Assembly (NCBI GenBank): GCA_016865015.1
Contig: CP018226.1
Coordinates: 2,821,001 to 2,885,000, forward strand
DNA length: 64,000 nt
Direction of reading: 5' to 3'
Source: Rhizobiales bacterium IMCC20636
GTDB lineage: Bacteria; Pseudomonadota; Alphaproteobacteria; Rhizobiales; GCA-2746425
Both the position numbers and the translations under genes were made by a program. The notes beneath the pieces were generated by a model that saw nothing but the letters and a program-made list of their open reading frames with translations, had not been told where the DNA came from and searched no databases. Numbering within the stretch: the first letter of the stretch is position 1; every line of letters starts with the position of its first letter. Positions 12,233 through 36,793 of the stretch are shown piece after piece.

Positions 12233-12261
12233 TGACAAAAGTCAAGAGGTATTGACAAATG
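12233..12261 (+). promoter_or_regulatory. SorC-type operator in the divergent ABC transporter / mtnK promoter region
   Basis: Perfect 12-bp palindrome TGACAAAAGTCA (12233-12244), eight bases, then TGACAAATG (12253-12261). The same 12-mer recurs, inverted, before the sorC gene with the same spacing to a near-identical second half. A TTGACA at 12252-12257 lies in the second half and is followed, 18 bases on, by TACCAT (12276-12281), a plausible mtnK promoter. Binding by the nearby SorC protein is inferred from the recurrence. Confidence 0.72.
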
Positions 12262-12345
12262 CTTTTTGCGACCTCTACCATGAGGTTCAACCGCGTGTTA
12301 AGTACGGGTGGTGACAGGCCATTTTACCTTCTCGGGGAGAACGAT

Positions 12346-13614: not shown

Positions 13615-14714
13615 AAGTTGGCGACACCCATTACTGTTCAATTTGGCAGGACACTGCTACAGGTGACATCCGCATCATCGACCAGCGCTGGTTACCACAT
13701 GAATTCCGCATCGTAACGCTTGAGACGCTAGATGAATTTGCCATAGCCATTCGCGATATGTGGGTCAGAGGAGCGCCTCTTATCGGGGCAACTGCTGCTT
13801 ATGGCGTTGCGCTGCAAATGGCGCGCGATCCTTCCGATGCGGCGCTTGATGAAGCCTATGATACACTTCACGCCACGCGTCCGACAGCCATTAATCTGCG
13901 CTGGGCGCTGGATGAAATGCGGGCAACTCTGGCTGGTTTGCCACTTGATCAGCGCGGCGCTGCCGCTTTGACCAAAGCTGCCGAGATTTGTGATGATGAT
14001 GTGGAAACCAACCGCATGCTCGGTGTTCACGGTCTTGAAATCATCAAGAAAATCGCGGCAACCAAGAAACCCGGAGAAGTCGTCAACATCCTGACCCATT
14101 GCAATGCCGGCTGGTTGGCAACTGTGGATTGGGGCACTGCAACGTCTCCGATGTATCACGCCATGGAAGCTGGCATTCCGATCCATGTCTGGGTCGATGA
14201 AACCCGCCCGAGAAATCAGGGCGCGCAACTGACCGCATGGGAAATGGTGGGAAATTCGATTCCGCACCATCTGATCGTGGACAATGCGGGTGGGCATATG
14301 ATGCAACATGGTCAGGTTGATCTGGTGATTGTCGGAACCGACCGCACAACGGCGCAGGGTGATGTCTGCAACAAGATCGGCACCTATCTGAAAGCGCTGG
14401 CAGCTGCTGACAATAATGTTCCGTTCTATGTAGCCCTGCCCTCATCAACCATTGACTGGACCGTGCGCGACGGCGTCAAGGAAATTCCCATTGAGGAACG
14501 TGATGGAAGGGAAGTCACCCATATTTATGGCCGTCTTGAAGATGGCAGCACCGGATTTGTTCAAATTTCTCCAGATGGTACGCCGGGCGGCAATCCGGCA
14601 TTTGATGTGACCCCTGCCCGCATGATCACCGGTCTCATTACAGAGCGTGGTGTTGCAGAGGCCAGCGCTGAAGGATTGCTGGCACTGTTTCCTGAAAGAC
14701 GCTCAGCCGCCTGA
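13611..14714 (+). CDS. mtnA: S-methyl-5-thioribose-1-phosphate isomerase
   Basis: A 367-residue member of the eIF2B-related isomerases, converting 5-methylthioribose-1-P to 5-methylthioribulose-1-P. Family landmarks are [33 protein letters not shown] with the catalytic Cys at 164, and [21 protein letters not shown] with the acid Asp at 244; these match the Cys/Asp pair of characterised MtnA enzymes. It is coupled to mtnK by an ATGA overlap. No mtnB, mtnC, mtnD, class II aldolase or thiol-lyase cupin is in the window, so the product must be used by other enzymes. The co-regulated RLP and transketolase are the candidates. Its 3' end overlaps the convergent sorC gene by 12 bases. Confidence 0.93.
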
Positions 14715-22993: not shown

Positions 22994-23480
22994 GTTTAAT
23001 CTGTGTGAGTCGCAAACACCTGCGTGCGTTGCGCCCTAAGACATTTGCATTTCGCCCCTGTTTCGGCATCAGGCATGGTTCACCGGTTCTCTACCCGAAA
23101 GACGGCAAAAATGGCAGTCTAGCTGACCAGAGACTTGCGAAAATCCGCATTTCCATGAACATGTAAAGTCTGCACAACTGTAGCTTGCGCAATGCAAGAT
23201 TGTCGCAAAATTCTTTTACTTCAATCTTTTTTCTCAAAATTGAGAAAATTCTTGACAATCGACAGGCACCTTTTTAGCGTTGATCTTTCAGTCCCGTCGA
23301 CAGCCGGAGCGCTTACCTCAGTCATATATTCCAACGCAATTCCGTTCATTGCGTCAGTCCCGTCAACCAGCCACAAATCTGGTCGGCTCTCAACTGCCTA
23401 TGGTGAAAGTTGACATTGTCATCTTCAGCCAATTGTCCAGCCTGCCAACCATGATCCAAAACACTTTAAGGGGCCTAGAT
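22994..23480. other. Intergenic region upstream of the NitT/TauT-type ABC operon
   Basis: Nearly 490 bases. The first two thirds show nothing I can assign. The last part carries the XRE-type operator and promoter at 23229-23280, followed by a leader of about 200 bases. An open frame runs through the leader into the ATPase gene but has no ribosome binding site or ATPase-like sequence, so it is treated as untranslated. Confidence 0.5.
23229..23280 (+). promoter_or_regulatory. XRE-type operator and promoter of the ABC / nucleoside phosphorylase operon
   Basis: TTTTCTCAAAATTGAGAAAA (23229-23248) has perfect 8-bp arms around a 4-base centre. It is followed by TTGACA (23252-23257), a 17-base spacer and TAGCGT (23275-23280). 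Over 29 bases it differs at only two central positions from the site before dctP at 28561, next to the XRE regulator gene. The shared operator predicts co-regulation. Confidence 0.8.
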
Positions 23481-24224
23481 TTGATTACCATACGGGGTGT
23501 GACCAAGACATTTGAAATGGGCAAGGAGCGTGTAACCGCGCTCGCTCCGATCGACCAGCAAATCAACAAGGGTCAGTTTGTCAGCATCATCGGCCCATCA
23601 GGTTGCGGGAAATCAACTCTGTTGCGTCTTATTGCCGGATTGGACGATGTCACCGAAGGCGAGATCAAGCTTGATACGAAGGGCGTTAAACGGCCGGTCG
23701 GGTTCGTCTTTCAGGATGCGGTTCTGCTGCCCTGGAAAAGCGTCATAGACAATATCCGGTTTCCCCTCGATTGCGCTGGCGTGAAAAGGGCAGCCGGCGA
23801 CAAACGGGCTCAGGAACTGATTGAGCTGGTTGGGTTGAAGGGCTTTGAAACAGCGCTTCCAAAACAGCTCTCGGGCGGGATGCGGCAACGTGCAGCCATT
23901 GCACGGGCTCTGGCTGATGATCCCCCCATACTTTTGATGGATGAGCCGTTTTCAGCCGTTGATCTTTTGACGCGGGAAACCCTCAATGATGAATTGCTGC
24001 AGATTTGGCAGCGCACCGGCAAAACCATCCTGCTGGTCACCCATTCGGTCGAAGAAGCCGCCTATCTTGGCACCCAGGTGATGGTCATGACACCGCGACC
24101 GGGACGCCTGAAAAAAACCATCAGTGTTGATCTGCCGCATCCGCGTGGCGAGCAGACAAAACTCGACCCGAACTATCACAAGCTTGTCATGGAGTTGCGC
24201 CAGGACATGCGGGGCAAAACCTGA
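23481..24224 (+). CDS. ABC transporter ATP-binding protein, NitT/TauT (SsuB/ThiZ) type
   Basis: A 247-residue ATPase with Walker A GPSGCGKST, Q-loop VGFVFQDAVLLPW, signature LSGGMRQRAAIARAL, Walker B ILLMDEPFSAVD and H-loop LLVTHSVEEA. All are typical of nitrate/taurine/pyrimidine-precursor importers. The start chosen is TTG at 23481, seven bases after AAGGGG; the in-frame ATG at 23451 has no ribosome binding site. First gene of a five-gene operon (ATPase, permease, nucleoside phosphorylase, binding protein, permease). Confidence 0.9.
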   Translation: MITIRGVTKTFEMGKERVTALAPIDQQINKGQFVSIIGPSGCGKSTLLRLIAGLDDVTEGEIKLDTKGVKRPVGFVFQDAVLLPWKSVIDNIRFPLDCAGVKRAAGDKRAQELIELVGLKGFETALPKQLSGGMRQRAAIARALADDPPILLMDEPFSAVDLLTRETLNDELLQIWQRTGKTILLVTHSVEEAAYLGTQVMVMTPRPGRLKKTISVDLPHPRGEQTKLDPNYHKLVMELRQDMRGKT

Positions 24225-24991
24225 TGCTGGCCCGTATCAAACCGGTCTTCGAATACGGCATTGCCCTTGGCGTGCTGTACTTCGTCTGGTGGTACGCGAG
24301 CGTTCCAATGGCAATGCCCAAATATCTCCTGCCTTCGCCGGGAGATACACTGAATGCGCTGTGGACAATGGCTCTGGAAAATAAACTTCAGCCCCATTTG
24401 TACTACACATCCCAGAACATCATTCTTGGGCTGCTGATCGGATCGGTCGTAGGGATTGCTTTGGCCTATCTTCTTTACCGACTGCCCCGGCTTTCGGCGA
24501 TTCTGGATGGCCCTCTGGTGGTGTTTCAGACAGCACCAAAGATCGCTCTCGCGCCACTGTTTGTGGTGTGGTTCGGACTGGGCCTCGGGTCAAAACTCAT
24601 TCTCATATTCTCACTGGTTTTCTTCCCGGTCCTGTTAGGTGCACTCGCGGGCTTCCGCGGCATCGACAGCCGGATGAACGATCTGTCCAAACTGCTGGAA
24701 CTGAATATTTTTGAACAATTCTTCAAAATTGATTTCATGGCAGCCCTGCCGGGCATTTTTGTCGGCCTCAAGATTGGTGCCGTTCAGGCGCTGGTCGGTG
24801 CCATTCTCGCTGAATGGATATCTGGCCAGCAGGGTCTGGGCTTTCTGATGACGCTGGCAACTGCAACCTACAAAACCCCGCTTCTGTTCGGTGCCGTGCT
24901 TCTTACATCTTTGTTTGGCATCGCCCTGCATGTCGGCATTACCGCAATTGAACATTTTGCATTGTCGTGGAAGGCACAGGATGACCAGTAA
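24224..24991 (+). CDS. ABC transporter permease, NitT/TauT type (first)
   Basis: A 255-residue permease with six helices. FQTAPKIALAPLFVVWFGLG and the EAA-like loop around LSKLLELNIFEQFFKIDFMAALPG are standard for SsuC/TauC-type proteins. Its ATG overlaps the ATPase stop by one base, and its 3' end overlaps the nucleoside phosphorylase by 11 bases. A second, distinct permease closes the operon, so the membrane part may be a heterodimer. Confidence 0.9.
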   Translation: MLARIKPVFEYGIALGVLYFVWWYASVPMAMPKYLLPSPGDTLNALWTMALENKLQPHLYYTSQNIILGLLIGSVVGIALAYLLYRLPRLSAILDGPLVVFQTAPKIALAPLFVVWFGLGLGSKLILIFSLVFFPVLLGALAGFRGIDSRMNDLSKLLELNIFEQFFKIDFMAALPGIFVGLKIGAVQALVGAILAEWISGQQGLGFLMTLATATYKTPLLFGAVLLTSLFGIALHVGITAIEHFALSWKAQDDQ

Positions 24992-25799
24992 CGCCAATCC
25001 CACAGCCACAATGCCGTTTGTGAATGGTCGACCGCCTCACCTCCCCTGCGGTCCTGGCGATCTGGCGCAGACGGTTCTGATACCCGGCGATCCGGACCGC
25101 GTCGCAATGTTCGCTGACAGGCTGGAAGATGTTCAGAATTTCGGCCGTCGTCGCGAATTTGCAGCTGTCACCGGTACGTTCAATGGACAGCGCCTTTCGG
25201 TTTGTTCCGGGGGGATTGGCGGCCCGTCGACCGAAATTGCTCTGGTCGAAATCGCCATGCTGGGCGTTCGCAACGTGATCAGGGTTGGCGGCATGTCCGC
25301 TCTCGTTCCAGAAATTCCCACCGGCAGCTATATAGTTGCTGACCGTGCCATTGGACTGACAGGTGTCGCGCGCCTTTATGCTGACCTTGGCTATGAGGCA
25401 ATCGCTGATCCGATCCTGACAGCCGGTCTGCTGGCGTCCGCCAGAGACCTGGGCCATAGCGTTCGGTCCGGAACAGTGGCGTCTACGGACAGCTATTATC
25501 TGGGTCAGGATCGACCAATCCCCGCCTCCGAGGCGAGCAAATTTCAGTCTCGGAAATTTCTCGATGAATTCAAATCTCAGGGCGCCATCGGCGTTGAAAT
25601 GGAAACACAGGTGATCTTCAGCGTGAGTCAGGCACTCGGGCTGAAAGCTGCCTGCCTTCTTGGGGTACATGGCAACCGCGCCACTGATGACTGGCTGGTT
25701 GACTACAGTAGCACTCAAAACGGGTTGCTGGATATCGCAGCTCAAGCAATCGTAAACCTAACGAAGAAAATGGAGCAAGATAATGAAAATATTGAGTAA
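24981..25799 (+). CDS. Nucleoside phosphorylase, uridine phosphorylase-like
   Basis: A 272-residue PNP/UDP-family phosphorylase. It shows ipgDPDRV-type phosphate loop (IPGDPDRVAMFA near residue 30), GGIGGPSTEIALVE, VIRVGGMSALVPEIPTGSYIV and AIGVEMETQVIF (the ribose-binding MEXE motif near residue 205). It would cleave a nucleoside with phosphate to a base plus ribose-1-P in the cytoplasm. Start ATG 24981 overlaps the permease gene; an upstream in-frame ATG lies inside that gene. Its place inside a transporter operon suggests that the transporter imports a nucleoside or the released base. Uridine is the best guess. Confidence 0.88.
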   Translation: MTSNANPTATMPFVNGRPPHLPCGPGDLAQTVLIPGDPDRVAMFADRLEDVQNFGRRREFAAVTGTFNGQRLSVCSGGIGGPSTEIALVEIAMLGVRNVIRVGGMSALVPEIPTGSYIVADRAIGLTGVARLYADLGYEAIADPILTAGLLASARDLGHSVRSGTVASTDSYYLGQDRPIPASEASKFQSRKFLDEFKSQGAIGVEMETQVIFSVSQALGLKAACLLGVHGNRATDDWLVDYSSTQNGLLDIAAQAIVNLTKKMEQDNENIE

Positions 25800-26772
25800 A
25801 ATCAGCCTGGCGGCGCTCGCGCTGTCGACTTTTGCCAGCACAGGCTTTGCTGCTGACAAGGTGATCATGCAAATTGACGGTGCCGCAGTGCCGTTTTATT
25901 CACCGCTTTATGCAGGTGTTGAAAACGGCTTTTTTGCCGATCAGGATATCGAAGTTGAATTCATCTATGCAGGTGCGTCGGATATCCTGACGAACATTGC
26001 TGCAGGCAATGTAACGTTCGGTTTTCCAAATGGTGACGCAGTTGTTGCTGCGGCAGCCAGCGGCCTGCCAGTCAAAGTGGTTCACACAACTTATCAGCGC
26101 GGCATTGGTGCATTGCTGGCCAAAAAGGAAACCGGCATCGAGACCTATGCCGATCTGAAAGGCAAAACGGTTGCTGTTACATCCCTTGCCAGCCCGAACT
26201 ATCTGCAGTTGCAGGTTGGTTTGAAAAAAGCAGGCCTCAGCCTGGATGACATCAAGCTGGAAGTTGTTGCAACCGGTGCCATCGTACAGACCCTTCAATC
26301 AGGTCAGGTTGATGCAATCGTGTTTTCTGAATTGCGTAAATATGTGTTGGAAGGCGACGGTATTGACGTGACAATGATCCTGTCGAACGACTTCCTGCCC
26401 TCTTTCGGCAATGTCGTTGTGACATCATCTGCACTGCTCGAGAGCAATCCTGATCTTGTAAAACGCTTTGCTGATGCCGTCACAGCATCTTATGAGTGGG
26501 TCATAGACGGCAACGTCGAGAATGCTCTGGATATTTCTTTTGAGAAATACACGCCAACCTGGGCCGATCAGAAAGCACTGCTGACGACAGCATTTGAGCA
26601 GTCATTTGTTGCCTCTGTCTGGCAAAGCCCTCTGACCGCTACCGAAGGTCTGGGTGCGGCAGATCTCAATGCCTGGCAGGCCAACGCCGATATCCTTGCA
26701 GAATATGGTGTCATCGACAGCGCCCCAAATGCGGCAGACTTCGTTGTCAGCCCTAAAGACATTGTGAAATAA
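25783..26772 (+). CDS. ABC transporter substrate-binding protein, NMT1/ThiY-like
   Basis: A 329-residue receptor with signal peptide MKILSKISLAALALSTFAS ending at GFA. The mature protein begins ADKVIMQIDGAAVPFYSPLYAGVENGFFADQDI, the NMT1 family pattern in which an aromatic base-like ligand is held near the first helix. Members bind hydroxymethylpyrimidine-type compounds, riboflavin, sulfonates and pyrimidines. It starts 17 bases before the end of the phosphorylase gene, with GGAG upstream. Given the phosphorylase and the shared operator with orotate-type genes, a pyrimidine base or nucleoside is the favoured ligand. Confidence 0.88.
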   Translation: MKILSKISLAALALSTFASTGFAADKVIMQIDGAAVPFYSPLYAGVENGFFADQDIEVEFIYAGASDILTNIAAGNVTFGFPNGDAVVAAAASGLPVKVVHTTYQRGIGALLAKKETGIETYADLKGKTVAVTSLASPNYLQLQVGLKKAGLSLDDIKLEVVATGAIVQTLQSGQVDAIVFSELRKYVLEGDGIDVTMILSNDFLPSFGNVVVTSSALLESNPDLVKRFADAVTASYEWVIDGNVENALDISFEKYTPTWADQKALLTTAFEQSFVASVWQSPLTATEGLGAADLNAWQANADILAEYGVIDSAPNAADFVVSPKDIVK

Positions 26773-26775
26773 GCA

Positions 26776-27519
26776 ATGCTCAAGCGCGGGGCCACGGGCC
26801 TACTCCTGATCTTCACTTTGTGGGCCGGTGGCGTCTATCTTTTCCAGGTTCCGGGTTATCTTCTACCCGGACCTGGCGAAGTGCTGGAACGTTTGGTGTT
26901 CCTTTACAAGAATGCCCAATTGACCACCCATATCTTCGTCACGCTGACCGAGATTTTCTGGGGATTTTTCTATGGCAGCCTGATTGGCATAGGTGTAGCG
27001 TTGGTCTTTGCGCGCCTTCCCATTCTGGAGCGTATTGCGACCCCGTTTATTCTGCTGTTGCAGACCGCACCCAAAATCGCCATTGCGCCGCTTCTGCTGC
27101 TATGGCTTGGTCTGGGACCGGCACCCAAAATTGTGCTGGTTGCCGTTGTGACCTTTTTCCCGGTCATGACTGGAATGCTGACAGGACTGAAATATGTCCA
27201 CAAATCCTATCTCGATCTGGCGAAAGTTCTGAAACTCAATCGCTGGCAGCGTTTCCTGCATATCGAGTTGCCATCCGCCTTGCCGACCCTGTTCGCCGGA
27301 GCAAGCGTTGCCACAACTCTTGCCATTACGGCGGCCGTCATCGGTGAGTTGATGGGCGCAAACAAGGGCCTGGGCTATCTGCTGTCAGCGGGACAGGAAA
27401 ACGCCGATTCCGCCACAGTGATGGGCATGGTGTTGCTTTTGTCGCTGATCGGCTGGCTGTTTTATGAAATCTTTGAATTGATGCGTCGCCGCATGGAAGC
27501 CCGCTTCTCTGACGTCTGA
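26776..27519 (+). CDS. ABC transporter permease, NitT/TauT type (second)
   Basis: A 247-residue permease with six helices. LLQTAPKIAIAPLLLLWLGLG and LAKVLKLNRWQRFLHIELPSALPT match the first permease in layout but the sequence is clearly divergent, so the pair is a paralogous heterodimer and not a recent duplication. It starts three bases after the binding-protein stop. Its own stop codon falls in a heptamer repeat at 27510-27537. Confidence 0.88.
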   Translation: MLKRGATGLLLIFTLWAGGVYLFQVPGYLLPGPGEVLERLVFLYKNAQLTTHIFVTLTEIFWGFFYGSLIGIGVALVFARLPILERIATPFILLLQTAPKIAIAPLLLLWLGLGPAPKIVLVAVVTFFPVMTGMLTGLKYVHKSYLDLAKVLKLNRWQRFLHIELPSALPTLFAGASVATTLAITAAVIGELMGANKGLGYLLSAGQENADSATVMGMVLLLSLIGWLFYEIFELMRRRMEARFSDV

Positions 27520-27554: not shown

Positions 27555-28436
27555 TTACCGCAAAACATTCTTCTCGATGAAGTCAGCGGCCTGCTCGCCC
27601 TTCAGAGCGCGGGTCCAAAGCTGAGTGGTGACAGACTGGTACAGCTCTGTCGCATCCGGTGCTGAACTGATGGTGGCAACACCGAGGCGGATATTTGCAA
27701 ATGCGCCCAGCCTGTAGGGGCTGACAGCAACCGATTTGCGTGTTGCCTGCTTGAAGATCTGCAGGCTTGAACCCGGCATGGAATCCACGACGACACCCAA
27801 CTGGACGCCAATCGGCTGTTTGCGCAGCAACTGGACGATATTCTCGATTTCAATCCGCGCAACTTCCCGCCGCTTCTCGACATCAACGCCTTGCGGATTA
27901 TACGATCCGATAAAGCCAAGTCTGAGAAACTGTGTCAGTTCTGCCGCAGATGTCAGGCTGATTATATTTGGCGTGCGCCTGCGATACGTTCGTTTCCGAT
28001 CCTGCAGAATTTCCAGAAGCGTATCCACTTCCATGAGTGACTGATCATAATTCTCGACATTGACCGGAATGCTTTCTCTCAGGATTTCGGGGAGATACTC
28101 ATCATACAAATCCGTTGTCAGCAGGTAGGAGACAGGACCAAACAAGACGGTGATCTGATCTACGTTCTCCTCCAATTGCCGCATGCGCTCAAAGAAGCTG
28201 ATGGCTGAGGCAATATACTCCACCCCTGCCCCCAGCAAGGTTGGCAAAGACACCTCCAGAAGATCAGCAATCTTGACCAGCGTATCTATCTTGGCCGGCT
28301 GTCCGGATTCATATCTGTAGATGGCAGCTCTGGACACGCCTGCCCGCTTGGCCAGTTGCTCCGGCGTCAAGCCCGCTCCCAGACGAAAGGCCTTCATCCG
28401 TTCGCCTATTTCCTCACCAGAAATCCCGTGATTCAC
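27555..28436 (-). CDS. XRE family regulator of pyrimidine uptake (HTH plus unknown effector domain)
   Basis: A 293-residue protein. The first 65 residues are an XRE/Cro helix-turn-helix (ERMKAFRLGAGLTPEQLAKRAGV then SRAAIYRYESG). The remaining roughly 220 residues are a conserved-looking but unnamed domain with YLLTTDLYDEYLPEIL and RRTPNIISL segments, possibly the ligand sensor. Start GTG at 28436 follows AAAGG; the ATG at 28472 lacks a ribosome binding site. It lies between the two operons that carry the TTTTCTCA-TGAGAAAA operator, one of which abuts its own promoter, making it the obvious binder. Confidence 0.82.
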   Translation of the reverse strand: MNHGISGEEIGERMKAFRLGAGLTPEQLAKRAGVSRAAIYRYESGQPAKIDTLVKIADLLEVSLPTLLGAGVEYIASAISFFERMRQLEENVDQITVLFGPVSYLLTTDLYDEYLPEILRESIPVNVENYDQSLMEVDTLLEILQDRKRTYRRRTPNIISLTSAAELTQFLRLGFIGSYNPQGVDVEKRREVARIEIENIVQLLRKQPIGVQLGVVVDSMPGSSLQIFKQATRKSVAVSPYRLGAFANIRLGVATISSAPDATELYQSVTTQLWTRALKGEQAADFIEKNVLR

Positions 28437-28550
28437 GCATTTGCCTTTATTATGTATTGTTTCTCCCGGCATTCAGAACGCGAAAACATCCTCCGTTTCC
28501 GCATCTCAGCCCAAGAGTTTACATTGCACAAAAGTCGCAAAAAGAAAAGC

Positions 28551-28612
28551 ATTCTGAGAATTTTCTCAATAATGAGAAAATTCTTGACACCGCAATAAGC
28601 CGCATTTACGCT
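28551..28612 (+). promoter_or_regulatory. XRE-type operator and promoter of the TRAP/pyr operon
   Basis: TTTTCTCAATAATGAGAAAA (28561-28580), perfect 8-bp arms, followed by TTGACA (28584-28589), 17 bases and TACGCT (28607-28612). An overlapping second palindrome TGAGAATTTTCTCA (28555-28568) may give a tandem site shared with the divergent regulator gene. 27 of 29 bases match the site at 23229. Confidence 0.8.
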
Positions 28613-28647
28613 TTCAAACTTCTGACATCTCGCAACAGGAGCTCCAC

Positions 28648-29676
28648 ATGAAAGCGTTAGCGAACCTTTCGAATTTTACTCTTCGAATCCTTCCAATCCT
28701 TGGCCTCACCATGGTCTCTGCCCCGGCTGCCTGGTCGGCTGATTTCACTGCTAAAATCGGGCATCTGGAATCCGACCAGCAATCACGGCATATCCATATT
28801 GTGAAAGTCGCTGATCTTGTCAAAGAGCGCACCAATGGCGCTGTCGAGTTCCAGATTTTTCCATCCGGCCAACTTGGCAATCAGCGCGAGATGACGGAAG
28901 GTGTGCAATTGGGCACTCTGGAAGCAACCGTCTCGCCAGCAGCGTTCATTGGCGGTTTCAACCCTGCCATTTCCATTCTGGATATCCCGTTCCTGCTCCC
29001 CGAAGATGCAGACAAGGCTCAGACACTTCGCGAAAGCGAATTTGGCCGCGCGCTGCTTGATTCCTTTTCTTCAAAAGGCGTTGTCGGAGTTGCGCTTTGG
29101 CCAAACGGGCTGAAGAATTTCACATCGAACAAGCCTCTGGATGATCTGGCCGCTTTCGGTGGACAAAAATTCCGCGTCATGGATTCAAACATTCTGATCG
29201 AGCAGTTTGATGCATTGGGCGCCTCGGCCATCGCATTGCCATTTGGCGAATTGTACACATCCCTTCAGACTGGCGTTGTCGATGGACAGGAAAATCCTCT
29301 CGATACAATCCAGCGCATGAAGTTCTACGAGGTGCAGAAATACCTCGTCGTCTCCGAACATGGTGCGATGGAAGATGTGGTTCTGTTCAATCCGACTTGG
29401 TGGAACAGCCTGCCTGAAGAATACCGCACCATCATCACAGATGCCTTCAATGAAGTTGTTCCCGAGCTTCGCGCCCATAAATCGGCTGCGGTTGACGCGG
29501 CTCTGGAAGCGATCAAACAGAGCGACATCAATGTGCGCGTGGCTTCAAGCGAAGAAAAGGCTGCATTGCGGGATGCGATGTATGACAAGGCTAAAGCGGC
29601 CTATATGGAGCGTGCAGGTGACACTGGAACCGCATTGATTGCGCTTTATGAAAAAGCCTATTCGGACCTCAACTGA
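28648..29676 (+). CDS. TRAP transporter substrate-binding protein, DctP family
   Basis: A 342-residue periplasmic receptor. A signal peptide of about 30 residues (MKALANLSNFTLRILPILG to APAAWSA) is followed by DFTAKIGHLESDQQSRHIH. It has GGQKFRVMDSNI, containing the conserved Arg that in DctP proteins salt-bridges a ligand carboxylate, and VVDGQENPLDTI. A carboxylate ligand is therefore expected. The operon's enzymes all act on orotate, dihydroorotate or carbamoyl-aspartate, which are carboxylates, so one of these is the probable ligand. Confidence 0.9.
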   Translation: MKALANLSNFTLRILPILGLTMVSAPAAWSADFTAKIGHLESDQQSRHIHIVKVADLVKERTNGAVEFQIFPSGQLGNQREMTEGVQLGTLEATVSPAAFIGGFNPAISILDIPFLLPEDADKAQTLRESEFGRALLDSFSSKGVVGVALWPNGLKNFTSNKPLDDLAAFGGQKFRVMDSNILIEQFDALGASAIALPFGELYTSLQTGVVDGQENPLDTIQRMKFYEVQKYLVVSEHGAMEDVVLFNPTWWNSLPEEYRTIITDAFNEVVPELRAHKSAAVDAALEAIKQSDINVRVASSEEKAALRDAMYDKAKAAYMERAGDTGTALIALYEKAYSDLN

Positions 29677-29699
29677 TCTCAATCAGTCCGAAAAACTCC

Positions 29700-29726
29700 G
29701 GAAGGCGGCCACATGCGCTGCCTTCC
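29700..29726 (+). terminator. Intercistronic hairpin after dctP
   Basis: GGAAGGCGGC and GCTGCCTTCC pair over ten positions with one G-U, around a seven-base loop. There is no T run. Like the hairpins after tctC and phnD it probably protects or partly terminates the dctP message. Confidence 0.65.
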
Positions 29727-29778
29727 TATCCACTGAGATAATCAGAGCCTTTCACCCCCTCAAAAACGGTTGAATATC

Positions 29779-30297
29779 ATGCATTATTTACGGCGTGTTG
29801 AGCGGGTTTTCCTGGTCACTCTGTTCCTTTCAATGGTTGCCCTGTTCTTTTTGAACGTGGTTGCGCGTGAATTTGGCGGCGCTATTGCCAGCCAGTTGGC
29901 CTGGGTTGAAGAAGCCGTTCGGCTGATGAATGTGTTCCTTGTTTTCGGTGCCCTGGGCCTTGCTCTGGAGCGCGGCAAACATGTGGGTATTGATACGCTG
30001 AGAGAAGCTCTGCCCAATACCGCCCGCAACACAATCCGCCGCATCATTGATGCCACAGGCTGCGTGTTCTCGCTTTATATGGCGTATCTTGCATGGCACC
30101 TGGTTGTCTTTGTGCTTGGCACGGGTCAAAGAAGCCCGACCCTGAATGTGCCGATTGGCTGGATTTACACAGCACCGATTGTCGGTTTTGGCCTGCTGGC
30201 CCTGCGCTACGCACTCAGCTTTTTCTCGATCATTGATCGCTTTACAAAACAAGATGACGATATGAATGACGCACAGCCTGCATCGGAGGCACGCTGA
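29779..30297 (+). CDS. TRAP transporter small permease, DctQ family
   Basis: A 172-residue protein with four hydrophobic helices and the DctQ pattern FLNVVAREFGG and WVEEAVRLMNVFLVFGALGLALERGKHVGID. It joins the large permease in the membrane. The ATG at 29779 was preferred to the in-frame TTG at 29770; neither has a strong ribosome binding site. It overlaps dctM by one base. Confidence 0.88.
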   Translation: MHYLRRVERVFLVTLFLSMVALFFLNVVAREFGGAIASQLAWVEEAVRLMNVFLVFGALGLALERGKHVGIDTLREALPNTARNTIRRIIDATGCVFSLYMAYLAWHLVVFVLGTGQRSPTLNVPIGWIYTAPIVGFGLLALRYALSFFSIIDRFTKQDDDMNDAQPASEAR

Positions 30298-31580
30298 TGT
30301 TGTTTCTCGTTATTCTTCTGGCAGTTATCCTGCTGATCGCCGGCTTTGAAATGCTGCTGGTGCTGGGCGTACCGGCGCTTGCGACCAAGATGATCTTTTA
30401 CGGATCGATGCCGGATCTGGCCTTTATCCAAAAAACCCTTGGCGGCATCAATCACACCACGTTGCTGGCCATTCCGTTTTTCATTTTTGCAGCGCATCTC
30501 ATGGGATCCGGGCAGATCGCCAGCCGCTTGACCGGGCTTGTCCGGGCGCTTGTTGGCCATGCCCGCGGCGGCATGGGTTATACGGTCATTGGCGGTTCCA
30601 TGGCGTTCGGCTCGGTCTCCGGGTCCGCACCTGCAACGGTCGCTGCCATGGGGCGGATGGTCTATCCGGAGATGCGCGCTGTTGGCTTTTCAGAAAAGTT
30701 CAGTCTCGGGCTGCTTGTGGCCAGTGCTGAAACTGCCATTTTGATACCGCCATCCATCACCTTCATCATTTATGGCTGGGTAACCGGGTCTTCCATTGGC
30801 CGTCTGTTTGCCGGTGGCCTTGCCGTTGGGTTGGTGTTGGGGCTCGCCTTCGCAATTCTTGTGAAGATCGAGGCCAAACGGACAGGCGTTGAATCATTCC
30901 AGAAAACCACCACTGCAGAAAAGCTGAAAGCCCTGAAAGACGCAGGCTGGTCACTTGGCATGCCAATCATCATTCTCGGCGGCATTTACGGCGGTGTTTT
31001 TACCCCCACAGAAGCCGCTGCCGTTAGTGTCGTCTATGCAATCCTGATTGAGGCGTTCATCTACAAGAATCTCGGCTTTGCGAAGCTGGTGGCGCTGACC
31101 GAACGAAGTGCCATCGCAACCGCCACAATTTTCATTCTCCTCGCCATGGGAAGCGTACTGTCTTTCTTCATCACCCTGGCGCAGGTCCCGACCCATATCA
31201 GCGATTTTCTGACTGCGATCGATGCCGGAGCCATTACCTTCCTGCTGGTGGTCAATGTCTGTTTCCTGATCGCAGGCATGTTCATTGACCCCAATTCAGC
31301 CTTGCTGGTTCTGGTGCCACCGCTGTTTCCGGTTGCCATGGCTCTGGGCATCGATCCAATTCATTTTGGCATGATCGTTACTTTGAACATTGGGATGGGC
31401 ATGATCACACCGCCCTTCGGGCTGGATATATTCGTCGCCTCTACCACACTCAACAAGCCAGTGATGAGCATCATAAAGGGCGTGTGGCCCTTTGTGATTG
31501 CCAACATCATTGTGTTGTTGATCATCACCTATGTGCCATCGATTTCATTGTTCATCCCAAATCTGATTTTCGGTCAATAG
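30297..31580 (+). CDS. TRAP transporter large permease, DctM family
   Basis: A 427-residue permease with about twelve helices, the usual DctM length. Landmarks are LLAIPFFIFAAHLMGSG, GGSMAFGSVSGSAPATVAAMGRM, LIPPSITFIIYG and GMITPPFGLDIFV. It carries Na+-coupled uptake with DctQ and DctP. The start overlaps dctQ (TGATG) and the stop is 11 bases before pyrK, so transport and metabolism genes share one transcript. Confidence 0.93.
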   Translation: MLFLVILLAVILLIAGFEMLLVLGVPALATKMIFYGSMPDLAFIQKTLGGINHTTLLAIPFFIFAAHLMGSGQIASRLTGLVRALVGHARGGMGYTVIGGSMAFGSVSGSAPATVAAMGRMVYPEMRAVGFSEKFSLGLLVASAETAILIPPSITFIIYGWVTGSSIGRLFAGGLAVGLVLGLAFAILVKIEAKRTGVESFQKTTTAEKLKALKDAGWSLGMPIIILGGIYGGVFTPTEAAAVSVVYAILIEAFIYKNLGFAKLVALTERSAIATATIFILLAMGSVLSFFITLAQVPTHISDFLTAIDAGAITFLLVVNVCFLIAGMFIDPNSALLVLVPPLFPVAMALGIDPIHFGMIVTLNIGMGMITPPFGLDIFVASTTLNKPVMSIIKGVWPFVIANIIVLLIITYVPSISLFIPNLIFGQ

Positions 31581-31591
31581 GAGGGCTGATC

Positions 31592-32434
31592 ATGAGCGTT
31601 GTCACATTCCCAAAATCACCCGTTCAGACTGAAATGACGCCTGTTTTCGAGGTCTCTTGCACCGTCAAACGCAACGACCCGGTCAATGGTGAATACCGGC
31701 AATTGGTATTGTATGCCCCGCAATCCATTCTCGACTGCGCGCCCGGGCAGTTTTTCCACCTGCTGTGTCCGATCACGGAGCAGTTGCAACCCTTTCTGCG
31801 TCGCCCGATGAGCATTTACGGCTTTTACCCCGAGAAGGGCGAATTGCATTTTCTCTACAAGGTCACTGGTGAAGGCACTTCCGCCTTGGCCACATTGACG
31901 GCTGGCCAGAGCCTGAACGTACTGGGCCCGCTTGGGCATGGGTTCGACATTCTGCCAGACTGGCAAAACCTGCTGCTGGTGGCGCGCGGTGTGGGACTGG
32001 CAACGCTTGCTCCCCTGGCCCTTCAGGCCCACAGGCTTGGCCGCAACCTGACTGCAATCTGCAGCGCACGATCTGAAGACATGCTGATGTCATTGGATTA
32101 TTTTCGCGACTTGGGCGCTGAGATCATCCCGATCACCGATGATAATGGTTCATCAGATATGGCCAATCTGCGCCACATCATTGAAGCGAAGATCGCTGAT
32201 ACCGGTATTGATGCGATGTATACATGCGGCTCCAATCGCATTTTGAAGCTGCTGCAAACTCTGGGCGAAATCCACAACATCCCCGGTCAGATTGCCCTTG
32301 AGCAGCAAATGGCTTGCGGGATCGGCATGTGCCAATGCTGTGTCCGTGCGTTCCGCCGCGATGGCAAAACCGTCAATGAACGTGTGTGCCGCGAAGGCCC
32401 TGTCTTCGATTTGCAGGAGGCCATCGGATGGTAG
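31592..32434 (+). CDS. pyrK: Dihydroorotate dehydrogenase electron-transfer subunit, PyrK-like
   Basis: A 280-residue FAD and [2Fe-2S] flavoprotein of the ferredoxin-reductase fold. RRPMSIYGF is the FAD-binding RxxS-type motif, GPLGHGFDI the usual PyrK loop, and the C-terminal MACGIGMCQCCV with a later VCREGPVF supplies the four cluster cysteines in PyrK spacing (C-x4-C-x2-C, then C). Start ATG at 31592 follows GGAGGG. It shuttles electrons between NAD(H) and the PyrD partner, with which it overlaps by seven bases. This subunit exists only in class 1B systems. Confidence 0.9.
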   Translation: MSVVTFPKSPVQTEMTPVFEVSCTVKRNDPVNGEYRQLVLYAPQSILDCAPGQFFHLLCPITEQLQPFLRRPMSIYGFYPEKGELHFLYKVTGEGTSALATLTAGQSLNVLGPLGHGFDILPDWQNLLLVARGVGLATLAPLALQAHRLGRNLTAICSARSEDMLMSLDYFRDLGAEIIPITDDNGSSDMANLRHIIEAKIADTGIDAMYTCGSNRILKLLQTLGEIHNIPGQIALEQQMACGIGMCQCCVRAFRRDGKTVNERVCREGPVFDLQEAIGW

Positions 32435-33372
32435 ACCTGACCACCCAAATCGGGTCTCTGACGCTGAAAAACCCGATCATGCCGGCATCGGGCACTTTCT
32501 CTGAAGAGCTTGCCCAATTGTTCGATCTGGAGTGTCTGGGTGCCCATGTCACCAAGACAATCACCCGCGAAAAACGCAGCGGAAACCCAACACCACGGGT
32601 CTGCGAAGTGCGCGGCTCGATGCTCAATTCCATCGGGATTCCGAGCAAGGGACTGGACGCTTTCAAGGCCAATGTGATCCCGTTTTACGAGCGCTATTCA
32701 GCGCCCCTGATCGTCAGCATATCTGCTGGTAGCGCCGATGAATTTGCGTCTCTGTGCGAAGATATCAGCGTTCCTGGCGTGGCTGCAATCGAGGTCAATA
32801 TTTCCTGCCCGAACATCGAAGAAGATGGCAAGGCCTTTGCCATGCGGCCTTCCACAACCTACGCGGTGATGCAAAAGCTGCGACAGGCGACGGATTTGCC
32901 GCTCTGGGCCAAACTAACACCCAATACGGGTGAAACCACCGAAGTTGCCAAGGCGGCGGAAGAAGCCGGTGCAGATGCGCTGGTGGTTTCAAACACATTG
33001 CTTGCCATGGCGATTGATATCCATACACGACGCCCGAAACTGGGTAATCTGATGGGTGGCTTGTCCGGCCCGGCCTTCAAACCCATTGCGTTGCGCATGG
33101 CCTATCAATGCGCCAAATCCGTCAATATTCCCGTGATTGGATGCGGCGGCATCTCTACCGTTGAGGATGTGATCGAGTATCTCATCGCCGGTGCCGTTGC
33201 GGTTCAAATCGGCACGGCCACATTTCTGGAACCCAAAATCATGGTCCGGATGATCGATGGGCTGGACGCTTATCTCAAGTCACAAGGGTTTCAGACTGTC
33301 GGGCAACTGGTCGGCTCGGTTGAAGATGAAGAGGCCTCTGACGGGTTGGTCTTCATGGAGGCTGCGCCATGA
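32428..33372 (+). CDS. pyrD: Dihydroorotate dehydrogenase, class 1B catalytic subunit
   Basis: A 314-residue FMN barrel. NISCPN supplies the class 1 catalytic Cys (residue 127; class 2 uses Ser). SMLNSIGIPSKG, AKLTPNTGET, NLMGGLSGPAFKPIALRM and IGCGGISTVED are class 1B signatures. With PyrK it interconverts dihydroorotate and orotate using NAD(H), in the cytosol. Proteobacteria normally make pyrimidines with the membrane-bound class 2 enzyme, so this copy probably has a specialised, perhaps reductive (catabolic), role. Start ATG 32428 follows AGGAGG. Confidence 0.93.
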   Translation: MVDLTTQIGSLTLKNPIMPASGTFSEELAQLFDLECLGAHVTKTITREKRSGNPTPRVCEVRGSMLNSIGIPSKGLDAFKANVIPFYERYSAPLIVSISAGSADEFASLCEDISVPGVAAIEVNISCPNIEEDGKAFAMRPSTTYAVMQKLRQATDLPLWAKLTPNTGETTEVAKAAEEAGADALVVSNTLLAMAIDIHTRRPKLGNLMGGLSGPAFKPIALRMAYQCAKSVNIPVIGCGGISTVEDVIEYLIAGAVAVQIGTATFLEPKIMVRMIDGLDAYLKSQGFQTVGQLVGSVEDEEASDGLVFMEAAP

Positions 33373-34649
33373 GCAATCGCACCCAGTCGCAACACTCATT
33401 TGATGCTGAAAACATCGCCGCCCGGTTGTTCCAGGAGGTCGCCGACTTTTCTGCAGATAGTGCCGGAGTCAGCCGCCCTGCATTTTCTCCCATAGAAACC
33501 AAAACGCTGAAATATCTGGAAGATTATGCAATCTCCCAGGGATTGGCCGTTCGCTATGATGCCGGGCAGAATGCCGTATTCTCGCTGCCAGATGACGCTG
33601 ATGCCCGCAAATATCTGCTGATCGGCTCCCATGTCGACAGTGTGCCCAATGGCGGCAATTTTGATGGTCTGGCTGGCGTCGTGGCCGGTTTGCTGTGTCT
33701 CGCGCGTGCCAGACATTCGGGCATTCGCTTTGCAAAACCCGTCAAGGTTATTGCCATGCGCGCAGAGGAAAGCGCCTGGTTCGGGCCATGCTACATTGCC
33801 TCAAAGGCTTTGCTTGGGAAGCTGGATGACGATGAATTGCAGTCGGTTCACAAAGGAGATGGACGCAGCCTCAGTGCTCATATGTCGGATATCGGCATCA
33901 ATATGAACCGGGTGCATCAGCACCTGCCGCTGATCGATCCATCCAGTGTTGAAGCCTATATCGAACTCCACATTGAGCAGGGACCGCTCCTGATCGAGAA
34001 AAACATGCCAGCCGCTGTCGTCTCCGGCATCAGGGGAAACATCAGGCACAAGAAAATCAGATGTGTTGGAGAAGCTGGCCATTCCGGCGCTGTCCCCCGG
34101 GCCTACCGGAAAGATCCGGTGCTGGCGATGGCAGACCTTTTGACGCGTCTGGACGAGAGCTGGCTGACCATTTTGCAAAAGGGGGAAGATCTGGTTCTGA
34201 CGGTCGGCATGGTGGCAACCGATCCGGTGCGACATGCTTTGACGCGCATACCTGATCTTGTGGATTTCAGCCTTGATCTTCGAAGCCAGAGCGCGGAAGC
34301 ACTTGATGATGTGCGCACATTGCTGATGCAGGAAATCAGATCAGTCGAGCGGGAGCGCGGCGTGACATTTGAACTGGATAAAGAGCTTCACACCGCACCG
34401 GCACTTTGCGATAAGCAGATGGTGGAAGGCCTGTCCGCGTCAATGGCGGATATAAGGCAAGAGCCTTTTACAATGCCGTCCGGTGGTGGGCATGACGCCG
34501 CTGTCTTCGCCAATGCGGGCATTCCGTCGGCTATGGTTTTTGTACGCAACAGAAATGGATCCCATAATCCGGATGAGGCCATGGAAATTCCTGACCTTGT
34601 TGCCGGAACGGATATCATCTTCAATTATCTCACAGAGGTGGTTCAGTGA
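33369..34649 (+). CDS. M20 family amidohydrolase: N-carbamoyl amino acid hydrolase, probable ureidosuccinase
   Basis: A 426-residue dizinc hydrolase of the AmaB/HyuC/AllC group. [21 protein letters not shown] gives His88 and Asp99, RAEESAWFG the acidic ligand and general base, ELHIEQGP His201, and NGSHNPDE the C-terminal His. The family removes the carbamoyl group from N-carbamoyl-L-amino acids, N-carbamoyl-beta-alanine or allantoate. Wedged between pyrD and pyrC by 4-bp overlaps, it most probably hydrolyses N-carbamoyl-L-aspartate to aspartate, CO2 and ammonia. That specificity is inference; no pyrimidine biosynthetic step needs it. Confidence 0.87.
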
Positions 34650-35710
34650 CGTCTTCTCAATTCACAATTCGGCAACCGGATGACTGGCATCTGCATTTGC
34701 GCGATGATTCCTTGCTCGAAGCCGTTATCGGTCATTCAAGCGCCTGGGCGGCACGCGCCATCATCATGCCCAATCTGGTCCCGCCGGTTGTCACAACAGC
34801 TCAGGCGCAAGCCTATAAGAGCCGGATTGAAGCCGCCCTCCCCTCTGGCGATAATTTCACGCCCTTGATGACACTCTATCTGACCGAGCAGACCGAGATT
34901 GATGATTTGCATGCAGGCGCTGAATCCGGACTGATACAGGCGGTAAAACTGTATCCGGCGGGTGCGACCACGAATTCCGACAGCGGCGTTCGCAGCTTTG
35001 AAAATGTCATGCCCATTCTGGAGCATATGGCGAAAATCAATCTTCCGCTCTTGGTCCATGGTGAAGTGACCGATGCCGATGTGGATATTTTTGACCGCGA
35101 AGCCATGTTCATCGAGCGCGTCCTTGATCCTATTCGCAAACGTATTCCCGAACTGCGCGTTGTCATGGAGCATGTCACCACATCTGACGGCATAGACTAC
35201 GTGTCTGCGGGCGGTGAGAACATCGCGGCCACAATCACAACGCACCATCTGATCATCAACCGGAATGCCTATTTGGCGGGTGGCATACGGCCGCATTATT
35301 ATTGCCTGCCTGTTGCCAAGCGGGAAAGTCACCGTCTGGCCCTGCGAACGGCAGCCACGTCCGGAAATCCGAAATTTTTCCTGGGCACCGATTCGGCACC
35401 ACATTTTGATGGTGCGAAGGAAACGGCCTGTGGCTGCGCCGGAATTTACACGTCAATCAACACATTGAACTGTCTGGCTCATGTTTTTGAAGATGACGGG
35501 GCACTGGACCAGATGGAGGCCTTCACATCGCTGAACGGCCCCGCCTTCTATGGTTTAAAGCCAAACGACAAAAAGCTGAAATTCACCAAAATGGATGAGC
35601 CAATTGCCTTTCCATCAAAGATTCCGGTTCAAAACGACCACATAACCGTTTTTGATCCGGGCTTTGCATTGTTTTGGAACCACGAAGCGATTAACGGTGG
35701 GGAGATTTGA
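34646..35710 (+). CDS. pyrC: Dihydroorotase, class II (PyrC)
   Basis: A 354-residue amidohydrolase like E. coli PyrC. WHLHLRD supplies His15 and His17, [13 protein letters not shown] the carbamylated Lys101, LLVHGEVTD and VMEHVTT two further metal His, and FLGTDSAPH the catalytic Asp. It interconverts N-carbamoyl-L-aspartate and dihydroorotate. Start is GTG at 34646, overlapping the M20 stop (GTGA), with AGAGG upstream. The reaction is reversible, so it can serve either biosynthesis or degradation. Confidence 0.95.
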
Positions 35711-35739
35711 CCTGATTTGATCTTCCAAAGGATAGCACG

Positions 35740-36450
35740 ATGAGCACCAGCATTTTCCCAGACCGTAAACTGATGGCAGAAATGACTGCCAGAATGCTGT
35801 TGGAGATTGATGCTGTCCATTTCCGGACAGACAAGCCCTTCATGTTCACATCCGGTCTTGCCAGCCCAGTCTATATCGATTGCCGGAAGCTGATTTCCTA
35901 TCCCCGCATTCGCAACACGCTGATGGATTTTGCTGCCGGTGTGGTGATGCGCGACATCGGGTTTGAACAGATTGACAGTGTGACTGGCGGTGAAACTGCT
36001 GGCATCCCCTTTGCAGCCTGGCTGGCTGAAAAACTGAATCTACCGATGCATTACGTCCGCAAGAAACCCAAGGGGTTTGGCCGCGATGCACAAATCGAAG
36101 GTAACTCGATTGACGGCAAGAGGGTTCTGCTGGTGGAAGACCTGACAACTGATGGCGGCAGCAAGATCAAATTCTGCGAGGCCATCCGGCATGCTGGCGG
36201 AGAAATTTCCGATACGGTCGTTGTGTTCTACTACGACATTTTTCCTGAAGCGCGGGAGAATCTCGAAAAGATTGGCTTGAAGCTGCACTACCTCGCCACC
36301 TGGCGCGATGTTCTGGATGTCTGCAAGACCCAAAAATATTTTGATCCGGAAACTTTGAAACAAGTTGAGAGTTTTCTGGACGATCCCCTGACTTGGTCTG
36401 GTGCCAATGGCGGTGCCACCGAAATTTCCGGCTTGAGTAAAAAGGAATGA
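35740..36450 (+). CDS. pyrE: Orotate phosphoribosyltransferase
   Basis: A 236-residue type I phosphoribosyltransferase. [18 protein letters not shown] is the orotate-binding region, [17 protein letters not shown] the flexible catalytic loop, and [14 protein letters not shown] the PRPP motif. It makes OMP from orotate and PRPP. Placed 29 bases after pyrC, it gives imported orotate a salvage route in parallel with the degradative enzymes upstream. Confidence 0.95.
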
Positions 36451-36454
36451 TTCC

Positions 36455-36793
36455 ATGCGTATGACTGAGCTTCTGAAAATCATTGAAGACAATGGCAAAG
36501 GTGTGCGTGCCTATTCGGAATGTGGCCAAGCAGCGCGCGAATGCATCAAAACCCAGCCGAACCAGGCTGTTTCCTACTATCTGCTCAGCATAGCGGCAGA
36601 CAGGTTTGTCGACACCTATGATGATCAGCCCCTGCTCAGCCAGGGTGCTGAAGATGTCTTCCAGAGTTTCAAGAGCTATGTGGACCAACTGGCTGCCACC
36701 GAGCAGGAAAGCGATGCTGCAAAAAAGCTTCAGGTCCTGAACCAGGTTGCCACTGAAATCGCAGAAGACAAATTTCTGCGACCCGCTGAGTAG
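36455..36793 (+). CDS. Conserved-looking small protein of unknown function, last gene of the pyr operon
   Basis: A 112-residue soluble, acidic, mainly helical protein (ELLKIIEDNGKGVRAYSECGQAARECIKTQ at the N-terminus, EQESDAAKKLQVLNQVATEIAEDKFL at the C-terminus). I do not recognise a domain. It starts five bases after pyrE with AAGGA upstream, and codon use resembles its neighbours, so it looks real. Two ATGs (36455, 36461) are possible starts. A regulatory or accessory role to PyrE is possible but unsupported. Confidence 0.72.
   Translation: MRMTELLKIIEDNGKGVRAYSECGQAARECIKTQPNQAVSYYLLSIAADRFVDTYDDQPLLSQGAEDVFQSFKSYVDQLAATEQESDAAKKLQVLNQVATEIAEDKFLRPAE

Follow-up and report, generated by a model that had tools for sequence, protein, structure and literature searches.

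A TRAP-linked pyrKD-M20 operon of Rhizobiales bacterium IMCC20636 as a probable locus for orotate acquisition and degradation

The 64,000-nucleotide stretch of Rhizobiales bacterium IMCC20636 considered here (contig CP018226.1, positions 2,821,001 to 2,885,000 of the forward strand; hereafter the window) carries, at positions 28648-36793 of its plus strand, an operon with the gene order dctP-dctQ-dctM-pyrK-pyrD(1B)-M20-pyrC-pyrE-orf112 and, divergent from it, the gene of an XRE-type regulator. We consider it likely that this operon serves the acquisition and degradation of orotate, probably under XRE control, because the receptor DctP has a close relative with orotate bound, because a second dihydroorotate dehydrogenase is encoded in the genome, and because both the gene linkage and a putative operator are conserved. 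Orotate would be captured by DctP and imported by DctPQM, a tripartite ATP-independent periplasmic (TRAP) transporter, after which PyrKD would reduce it with NADH to dihydroorotate; the equilibrium between orotate and dihydroorotate lies toward reduction. PyrC would then open the dihydroorotate ring to give N-carbamoyl-L-aspartate, which the M20 enzyme would irreversibly hydrolyze to aspartate, CO2 and ammonia, while PyrE would draw orotate off to orotidine 5'-monophosphate and uridine 5'-monophosphate (UMP). An earlier reading of the same letters, made without database searches (the sequence-only reading), had proposed a TRAP-linked orotate utilization pathway, and this proposal is upheld by the kinship of DctP with Protein Data Bank (PDB) entry 4NN3, by the presence of a class 2 PyrD and by the conserved linkage and operator; the reductive direction of flux and the substrate of the M20 enzyme are what we infer beyond these. 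It also invoked the orotate fermentation route of anaerobes, but nothing in the analysis indicates fermentation by this organism.

Layout and conservation of the locus

The genes named in the sequence-only reading (dctPQM, pyrK, pyrD, the M20 gene, pyrC and pyrE) all lie where it had placed them, with families assigned by curated models and, for PyrK, by a Pfam domain. DctP scores 244 bits against the TRAP_S1/DctP model (cut-off 50), DctM 380 bits against the dctM model (cut-off 268), PyrD 357 bits against PRK07259 dihydroorotate dehydrogenase (cut-off 269), the M20 protein 283 bits against the TIGR01879 hydantoinase/carbamoylase model (cut-off 204), PyrC 427 bits against TIGR00856 dimeric PyrC (cut-off 293) and PyrE 387 bits against PRK00455 (cut-off 245). 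PyrK matches several electron-transfer models of dihydroorotate dehydrogenase, the best at 136 bits and all below the cut-offs of these full-length NCBIfam models, and its Fe-S domain PF10418 exceeds the Pfam cut-off; orf112 has no Pfam or NCBIfam match at E ≤ 0.001. The intergenic gaps, with overlaps as negative values, are 93 bp (dctP-dctQ), -1 (dctQ-dctM), 11 (dctM-pyrK), -7 (pyrK-pyrD), -4 (pyrD-M20), -4 (M20-pyrC), 29 (pyrC-pyrE) and 4 (pyrE-orf112), which bears out the overlapping or very close arrangement from dctQ to pyrC described earlier. Since the genes from dctQ to orf112 overlap or lie no more than 29 bp apart, a single transcript from dctQ onward is likely. Scanning gave 13 promoter-like sites versus 6.5 in shuffled sequence and 7 terminator-like sites versus 10.1, and did not decisively indicate an internal promoter before pyrC or pyrE. 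Inside the dctP-dctQ gap (29677-29769) lies an inverted repeat, GGAAGGC...GCCTTCC; inverted repeats are common downstream of highly expressed receptor genes.

The best 80 of 144 confirmed relatives found by searching with the M20 protein, one genome per species, were kept as loci, and 43 of these hold a window-type pyrD in the same stretch (the linked loci; M20 is present in them by construction). Homologues of the neighboring genes, sought by tblastn at E ≤ 1e-8 anywhere in the stretch, were found for pyrK in all 43 linked loci, for the XRE regulator in 42, for pyrE in 37, for dctP in 35, for orf112 in 26 and for pyrC in 16, and this conserved linkage exceeds chance. Among the hosts are Rhizobiaceae, Cohaesibacter, Mesorhizobium, Celeribacter, Pacificibacter, Pseudooceanicola, Chelatococcus, Devosia and Polaromonas; in L039 and L041 the opposite strand carries the TRAP genes, and L013 has a weak pyrE set apart. 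Among the 8 linked loci without dctP, L011, L022 and L023 have an NMT1-type ATP-binding cassette (ABC) operon in its place and retain XRE-pyrK-pyrD-M20 in a stretch that lacks pyrE and pyrC, L036 has a major facilitator superfamily (MFS) carrier upstream of M20, and L052, from an actinomycete bin, has a BMP-type ABC system; an MFS carrier is found in L040 too, a locus without pyrD in its stretch. In L052 (650-8813) pyrKD adjoins a more distant M20 and the BMP-type ABC genes, and its genome has no class 2 PyrD above the cut-off.

Receptor, dehydrogenase and M20 enzyme

The PDB sequence closest to DctP is 4NN3, which is Desal_2161 of Desulfovibrio (Maridesulfovibrio) salexigens, at 450 bits with the runner-up at 172 bits, and 4NN3 also comes first in the fold comparison (65% identity across 310 columns, E 5e-38). 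According to PMC11668362, orotic acid is bound in 4NN3, and this receptor differs from the others compared there in carrying Lys for the second conserved Arg (position 152), pointing off the ligand, and Asn at position 76, where the other receptors are acidic; orotic acid also stands among the new TRAP ligands in a review (PMC5812351). The earlier statement that no TRAP system for orotate had been described thus has to be withdrawn, the absence of any known orotate receptor of this type being ruled out by the orotic acid in 4NN3. By motif matching, Lys156 and Asn78 of the window DctP correspond to positions 152 and 76 as numbered in that paper, and the local motifs WPNG-x-K and LGNQR are common to both receptors. 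K156 is present in 36 and N78 in 32 of 37 aligned DctP sequences, a set that includes L074 (29% identity, outside the locus) and from which the short fragment L072 was dropped before counting. The structure model of DctP, built from 21 of the 38 DctP sequences, has a mean predicted local distance difference test score (pLDDT) of 79, with core segments 74-88 and 200-216 below 50; since N78 falls within the former, the pocket is modelled unreliably. Taken at the level of sequence, DctP is very probably a receptor of the 4NN3 type for which orotate binding is predicted.

PyrKD belongs to class 1B by the type of PyrD, by its catalytic Cys and by the four-Cys PyrK partner: the residues of PyrD that we take to be orotate and catalytic contacts, including the catalytic Cys of NISCPN, are unchanged in 44 of 44 aligned sequences, and the four [2Fe-2S] Cys of PyrK are conserved in 44 of 44 as well. 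Copy numbers were searched in the own genome and for 44 of the 80 loci (the 43 linked ones and L040, with L015 and L026 left out), which for class 2 PyrD amounts to 43 genomes, namely the own genome and 42 reached through the loci, G035 among them through L040. A class 2 PyrD above the curated cut-off is encoded in 42 of these 43 genomes, and in 41 of the 42 whose locus holds pyrKD-M20; only matches above the cut-off were counted, because in a control the family gave some match in all 14 known genomes (above the cut-off in 7). The own copy scores 376 bits against a cut-off of 200 (G000 C1:4553561-4554598), one stop codon interrupts the match in G032, and the lone genome without a class 2 PyrD above the cut-off is that of the actinomycete G041. 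Judged from this gene content, PyrKD is not needed for de novo pyrimidine synthesis, since a class 2 PyrD is also encoded. The operon is not the cell's only pyr gene set: class 2 PyrD and pyrB are found elsewhere in the genome. Nor does the operon hold the only dihydroorotate dehydrogenase, as a biosynthetic pyr operon would.

The model of the M20 enzyme (pLDDT 92.6, built from 34 of 83 M20 sequences) finds its closest folds in L-N-carbamoylase 3n5f and allantoate amidohydrolase 1z2l, and the metal ligands are the same in all 83 aligned sequences. At position 293, Arg is found in 43 of 44 pyrD-linked M20 sequences (window included; the exception is L052) versus 2 of the 39 others, these two being L040 and L044, both beside pyrE; the M20 of L045, also beside pyrE, has Val there. 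Aligned to 3n5f, the Asn of the INVIP motif, which we take to be a contact of the substrate carboxylate, is replaced by Thr in the window enzyme and by Ser or Ala in its relatives, and the next residue is Arg in the operon M20s. Because Arg293 follows the place of this Asn, the second carboxylate of carbamoyl-aspartate could be bound by it. In a quick tree, one group of 46 comprises the linked M20s except L052, plus L040, L044 and L045, with a Shimodaira-Hasegawa-like approximate likelihood ratio test value of 91, computed without bootstrap and below the starred level. The pyrD-M20 overlap is exactly 4 bases in 30 of 43 loci and the distance lies within -46 to +17 in 41 of 43, counts that depend on the chosen start codons. 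Going by these overlaps and this tree, M20 is translationally coupled to pyrD and its clade nearly coincides with the locus. The family models that match it are named for allantoate or N-carbamoyl amino acid hydrolases. To our knowledge no gene has been assigned to ureidosuccinase (EC 3.5.1.7), and the M20 gene is a good candidate for it, with carbamoyl-aspartate as the presumed substrate. Nothing was found under ureidosuccinase and its synonyms in the open literature searched, and a search of PMC1940265 for the EC number gave 3.5.1.71 and 3.5.1.79 but not 3.5.1.7.

Regulator, operator and a second operon

In the aligned upstream stretches of divergent loci, a palindrome TCTCA-N4-TGAGA stands directly before a TTGAC box; the copy upstream of dctP (Table 1) starts 3 bases past 28561, the start given in the sequence-only reading. 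Of the 43 linked loci, 35 have the palindrome in the 300 bp preceding the first operon gene when one mismatch is tolerated, and 22 have it without mismatch, a conservative count for L011, whose site lies further upstream. Elsewhere in those loci (847 kb) there are 30 matches with at most one mismatch and 12 exact ones, from which 0.011 and 0.0045 would be expected per 320-bp stretch. Its adjacency suggests that the XRE regulator probably acts on this palindrome, and an inducer of the regulon is likewise part of what we propose.

The exact palindrome occurs eight times in the own genome and is followed by AAATTCTTGACA in only two of these places, before dctP and before an ABC operon that starts at 23280. 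This unit of ABC and uridine-phosphorylase-like genes (23232-27519 in the window) is present in 5 of the 43 linked loci (L011, L022, L023, L027 and L039), and an exact palindrome lies upstream of it in all of these but L027. The regulon seems to extend to this ABC-transporter/nucleoside-phosphorylase operon, beyond the coordinates of the sequence-only reading, and since the same operator sequence precedes both operons it is probably a wider pyrimidine-uptake program, in which the second operon could feed in uracil, or orotate from orotidine. The window further contains, at 12259-14714, genes for S-methylthioribose kinase and methylthioribose-1-phosphate isomerase, a separate locus of the methionine-salvage type.

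Table 1. Features of the orotate-type operon, its regulator and the second operon (positions in the window; ORF, open reading frame)
Feature	Position	Strand	Evidence
dctP, orotate-type TRAP receptor (predicted)	28648..29676	+	65% identity to 4NN3; K156, N78, R176 of binding-site region in common
dctQ, TRAP small permease	29770..30297	+	PF04290; start possibly ATG at 29779
dctM, TRAP large permease	30297..31580	+	TIGR00786
pyrK, FAD/[2Fe-2S] electron-transfer subunit of class 1B dihydroorotate dehydrogenase	31592..32434	+	PF10418; PDB 1ep3 chain B; four Cys
pyrD, class 1B catalytic subunit	32428..33372	+	PRK07259; PDB 5ue9, 1ep1; active-site residues
M20 carbamoylase, predicted N-carbamoyl-L-aspartate amidohydrolase (ureidosuccinase)	33369..34649	+	TIGR01879; fold 3n5f; Arg293
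pyrC, dimeric dihydroorotase	34646..35710	+	TIGR00856; sole TIGR00856 match in genome
pyrE, orotate phosphoribosyltransferase	35740..36450	+	PRK00455; single copy found in genome
orf112, conserved protein, function not assigned	36455..36793	+	homologue in 26/43 linked loci
XRE-type regulator, divergent from operon	27555..28472	-	HTH_3; homologue in 42/43 linked loci
Palindromic operator (putative), TCTCAATAATGAGA then AAATTCTTGACA, upstream of dctP	28564..28577	.
Palindromic operator (putative), TCTCAAAATTGAGA then AAATTCTTGACA, upstream of ABC operon	23232..23245	.	exact match
ABC ATPase	23280..24224	+	Pfam ABC_tran; start codon uncertain, true start probably further in
ABC permease (named by context)	24224..24991	+	ORF and position; homologue with same neighbors in L011, L022, L023, L027, L039
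Uridine-phosphorylase-like nucleoside phosphorylase	24891..25799	+	PF01048; TIGR01718 at 158 bits, below curated 280; GQDR motif; start uncertain
NMT1-type ABC substrate-binding protein	25783..26772	+	PF09084
ABC permease (named by context)	26776..27519	+	ORF and position; homologues with same neighbors

Pyrimidine gene inventory, competing readings and known systems

Dimeric PyrC and PyrE each have one match in the own genome, both in the operon. A pyrB gene lies elsewhere, together with a type I PyrC that has QVN in place of the HxH motif (L103:2647-3990); loss of HxH is the usual sign of an inactive pseudo-dihydroorotase. Since the operon copies are the only ones found and the pyrB-linked PyrC lacks HxH, pyrC and pyrE of the operon probably also serve de novo UMP synthesis, and the earlier view that PyrE provides salvage, right in placing PyrE in the operon, does not hold for salvage as its only role. 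Relatives such as G002, G004 and G011 have two PyrC-PyrE pairs. In a tree of PyrC (24 of 43 operon loci and 20 stretches with other copies, as for PyrE), a starred branch unites the own copy with those from the operons of G001, G002, G004 and G011, and the other copies of G002, G004 and G011 stand separate from it. The PyrE tree has a corresponding group of ten (support 98/65, not starred) that includes the single pair of G008, sited outside the pyrKD-M20 locus of that genome; the own PyrE is 89% identical to the operon copy of G002 and 68% to its other copy. The operon copies as a whole do not form one clade in either tree (3 changes), and very long branches lead to G010, G003 and G021 in the PyrE tree. 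On these trees the simplest reading is that the operon PyrC-PyrE pair displaced the biosynthetic one. A dihydroorotase-like protein in L104, at 257 bits under the cut-off and beside a CobW-type GTPase, could substitute for PyrC; at L104:1109-4592 an NMT1-type receptor gene, a gene for a CobW-like GTPase and one for a dihydroorotase/hydantoinase-like protein are neighbors. The own genome also holds a separate cluster resembling the reductive uracil pathway, with PreA (735 bits), a dihydropyrimidinase (604 bits), an M20-superfamily enzyme and a flavoprotein that we take for PreT.

Several observations weigh against assigning the operon to orotate degradation. Reverse searches with PyrD and DctP in 385 genomes of the class, made to avoid the bias of the M20 query, show that the locus is rare: PyrD-1B at E ≤ 1e-60 is found in 12 of these genomes (own included) at 13 places, and close DctP (E ≤ 1e-75) in 2. 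These two copies, in the own genome and in G057, both lie beside pyrKD-M20, which speaks for the reading. M20 is near only 3 of the 12 PyrD-1B places outside the own genome (L142, L143 and L151), so that linkage to M20 marks one PyrKD subgroup and not all; both places with 61-62% identity have M20 nearby, as against one of the ten with 54% or less. L144 has no M20, yet has pyrE and pyrC beside pyrKD. Among the nine M20-less places, the stretches of L144 and L152 end at contig ends, and L144-L147 and L149 have an XRE homologue (45-48%); selected neighbors there include a Mo-hydroxylase, TauD, a TPR protein, an FAD-binding protein and a PspF-like regulator, with no M20 or TRAP gene. Within the window the palindrome occurs three times with at most one mismatch (two of them exact) against 1.69 expected, and 21 of 100 shuffles reach three; with no excess over chance in the window alone, the case for the palindrome rests on its conservation. 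Arg293 could be a mere clade marker without function, L045 and L052 lacking it. Finally, the M20 enzyme would also destroy carbamoyl-aspartate made de novo while pyrC and pyrE share its operon; it would have to be kept from draining this intermediate whenever the operon provides PyrC and PyrE for growth in the absence of orotate. As a separate observation, at L143:3133-11774 (G415) an XRE-pyrE-M20-pyrD-pyrK array is arranged divergently to an NMT1-type ABC system, with a receptor just 25% identical to that of the window.

Were the operon a salvage module, the TRAP transporter would import dihydroorotate or orotate, PyrKD would work oxidatively with NAD+, PyrE would make UMP and the M20 enzyme would only clear excess carbamoyl-aspartate. 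The frequency of pyrE in the linked loci, its being the sole PyrE found in the own genome and the uridine-phosphorylase-like enzyme in an operon with the same operator all fit this account, but a pyrD-coupled M20 is useless for it, dihydroorotate oxidation is already covered by class 2 PyrD, salvage of orotate requires neither PyrKD nor PyrC, and L011, L022 and L023 retain XRE-pyrK-pyrD-M20 without them having pyrE or pyrC in the stretch; we regard it as improbable. That the locus is a rearranged biosynthetic pyr operon, with PyrKD as the working dihydroorotate dehydrogenase and the TRAP and M20 genes as chance neighbors, would agree with the sole PyrC and PyrE being here and with the lost HxH of the pyrB-linked PyrC, but seems very unlikely given class 2 PyrD in 42 of 43 genomes, the same gene set across many genera and the grouping of the own PyrC (less firmly of PyrE) with operon copies from relatives in which a separate pyrC-pyrE pair is retained. 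Service to another ureido or cyclic acid, such as a hydantoin or a different N-carbamoyl amino acid, in which case PyrKD-PyrC would act on an analogue, draws on the names of the M20 family models and on the M20 substrate being presumed, and has very little to commend it against the 65% identity of DctP to a receptor with orotate bound and the unchanged presumed orotate contacts of PyrD.

Returning to orotate degradation, we would go further, if with only slightly more confidence than doubt, and propose that the M20 clade is the missing ureidosuccinase gene; that the locus is, in genetic terms, a complete regulon for orotate catabolism (with regulator, operator, TRAP importer, PyrKD, PyrC, ureidosuccinase and PyrE) spread across several alphaproteobacterial orders and some Betaproteobacteria; that its transporters are interchangeable (TRAP, NMT1-type ABC, MFS and BMP-type ABC); and that the catabolic PyrC-PyrE replaced the biosynthetic pair in some lineages. 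Orotate breakdown was described biochemically in anaerobes in the 1950s, and its chemistry and the TRAP transporter type were known separately; here the genes, the regulator and the DNA site appear as one conserved package. If this holds, genes, a transporter and a regulator can be assigned to a breakdown route known from biochemistry, various marine and soil Alphaproteobacteria would seem to use orotate as a nutrient, and a sequence signature becomes available to annotate an M20 clade whose nearest models carry other names; it would also be an instance of two pyrimidine enzymes whose catabolic copies seem to have assumed the biosynthetic role. No account of this locus was found among 5.39 million open papers, judged by the titles listed and with subscription papers mostly outside the search, which is weak evidence of novelty; on orotate and TRAP together, one text searched mentions orotate only within the name of pyrE.

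Among known systems, the orotate fermentation of Clostridium (Zymobacterium) oroticum likewise converts orotate by way of dihydroorotate and carbamoyl-aspartate into aspartate and uses an NAD-linked class 1B dehydrogenase, but in an anaerobe, whereas the window locus belongs to an alphaproteobacterium and combines TRAP import with an XRE regulator; the class 1B dehydrogenase of Clostridium oroticum is named in a reference title of PMC9326563. The reductive uracil pathway (dihydropyrimidine dehydrogenase, dihydropyrimidinase and beta-ureidopropionase), also encoded in the own genome, runs through the same three reactions and also ends with an M20 hydrolase, but its substrate has no carboxylate, its dehydrogenase and cyclic amidohydrolase are others, and the two M20s are 29% identical. 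With 3n5f and 1z2l the window M20 has in common the fold, the metal ligands and the dimer His, whose roles we take as known for the family, at identities of 32% to the L-N-carbamoylase and 29% to the allantoate amidohydrolase. Desal_2161 (4NN3), with orotic acid in the crystal according to PMC11668362, resembles the window DctP in overall sequence and in its Lys and Asn peculiarities; it is compared as a single receptor, whereas the window DctP sits in a pathway operon.

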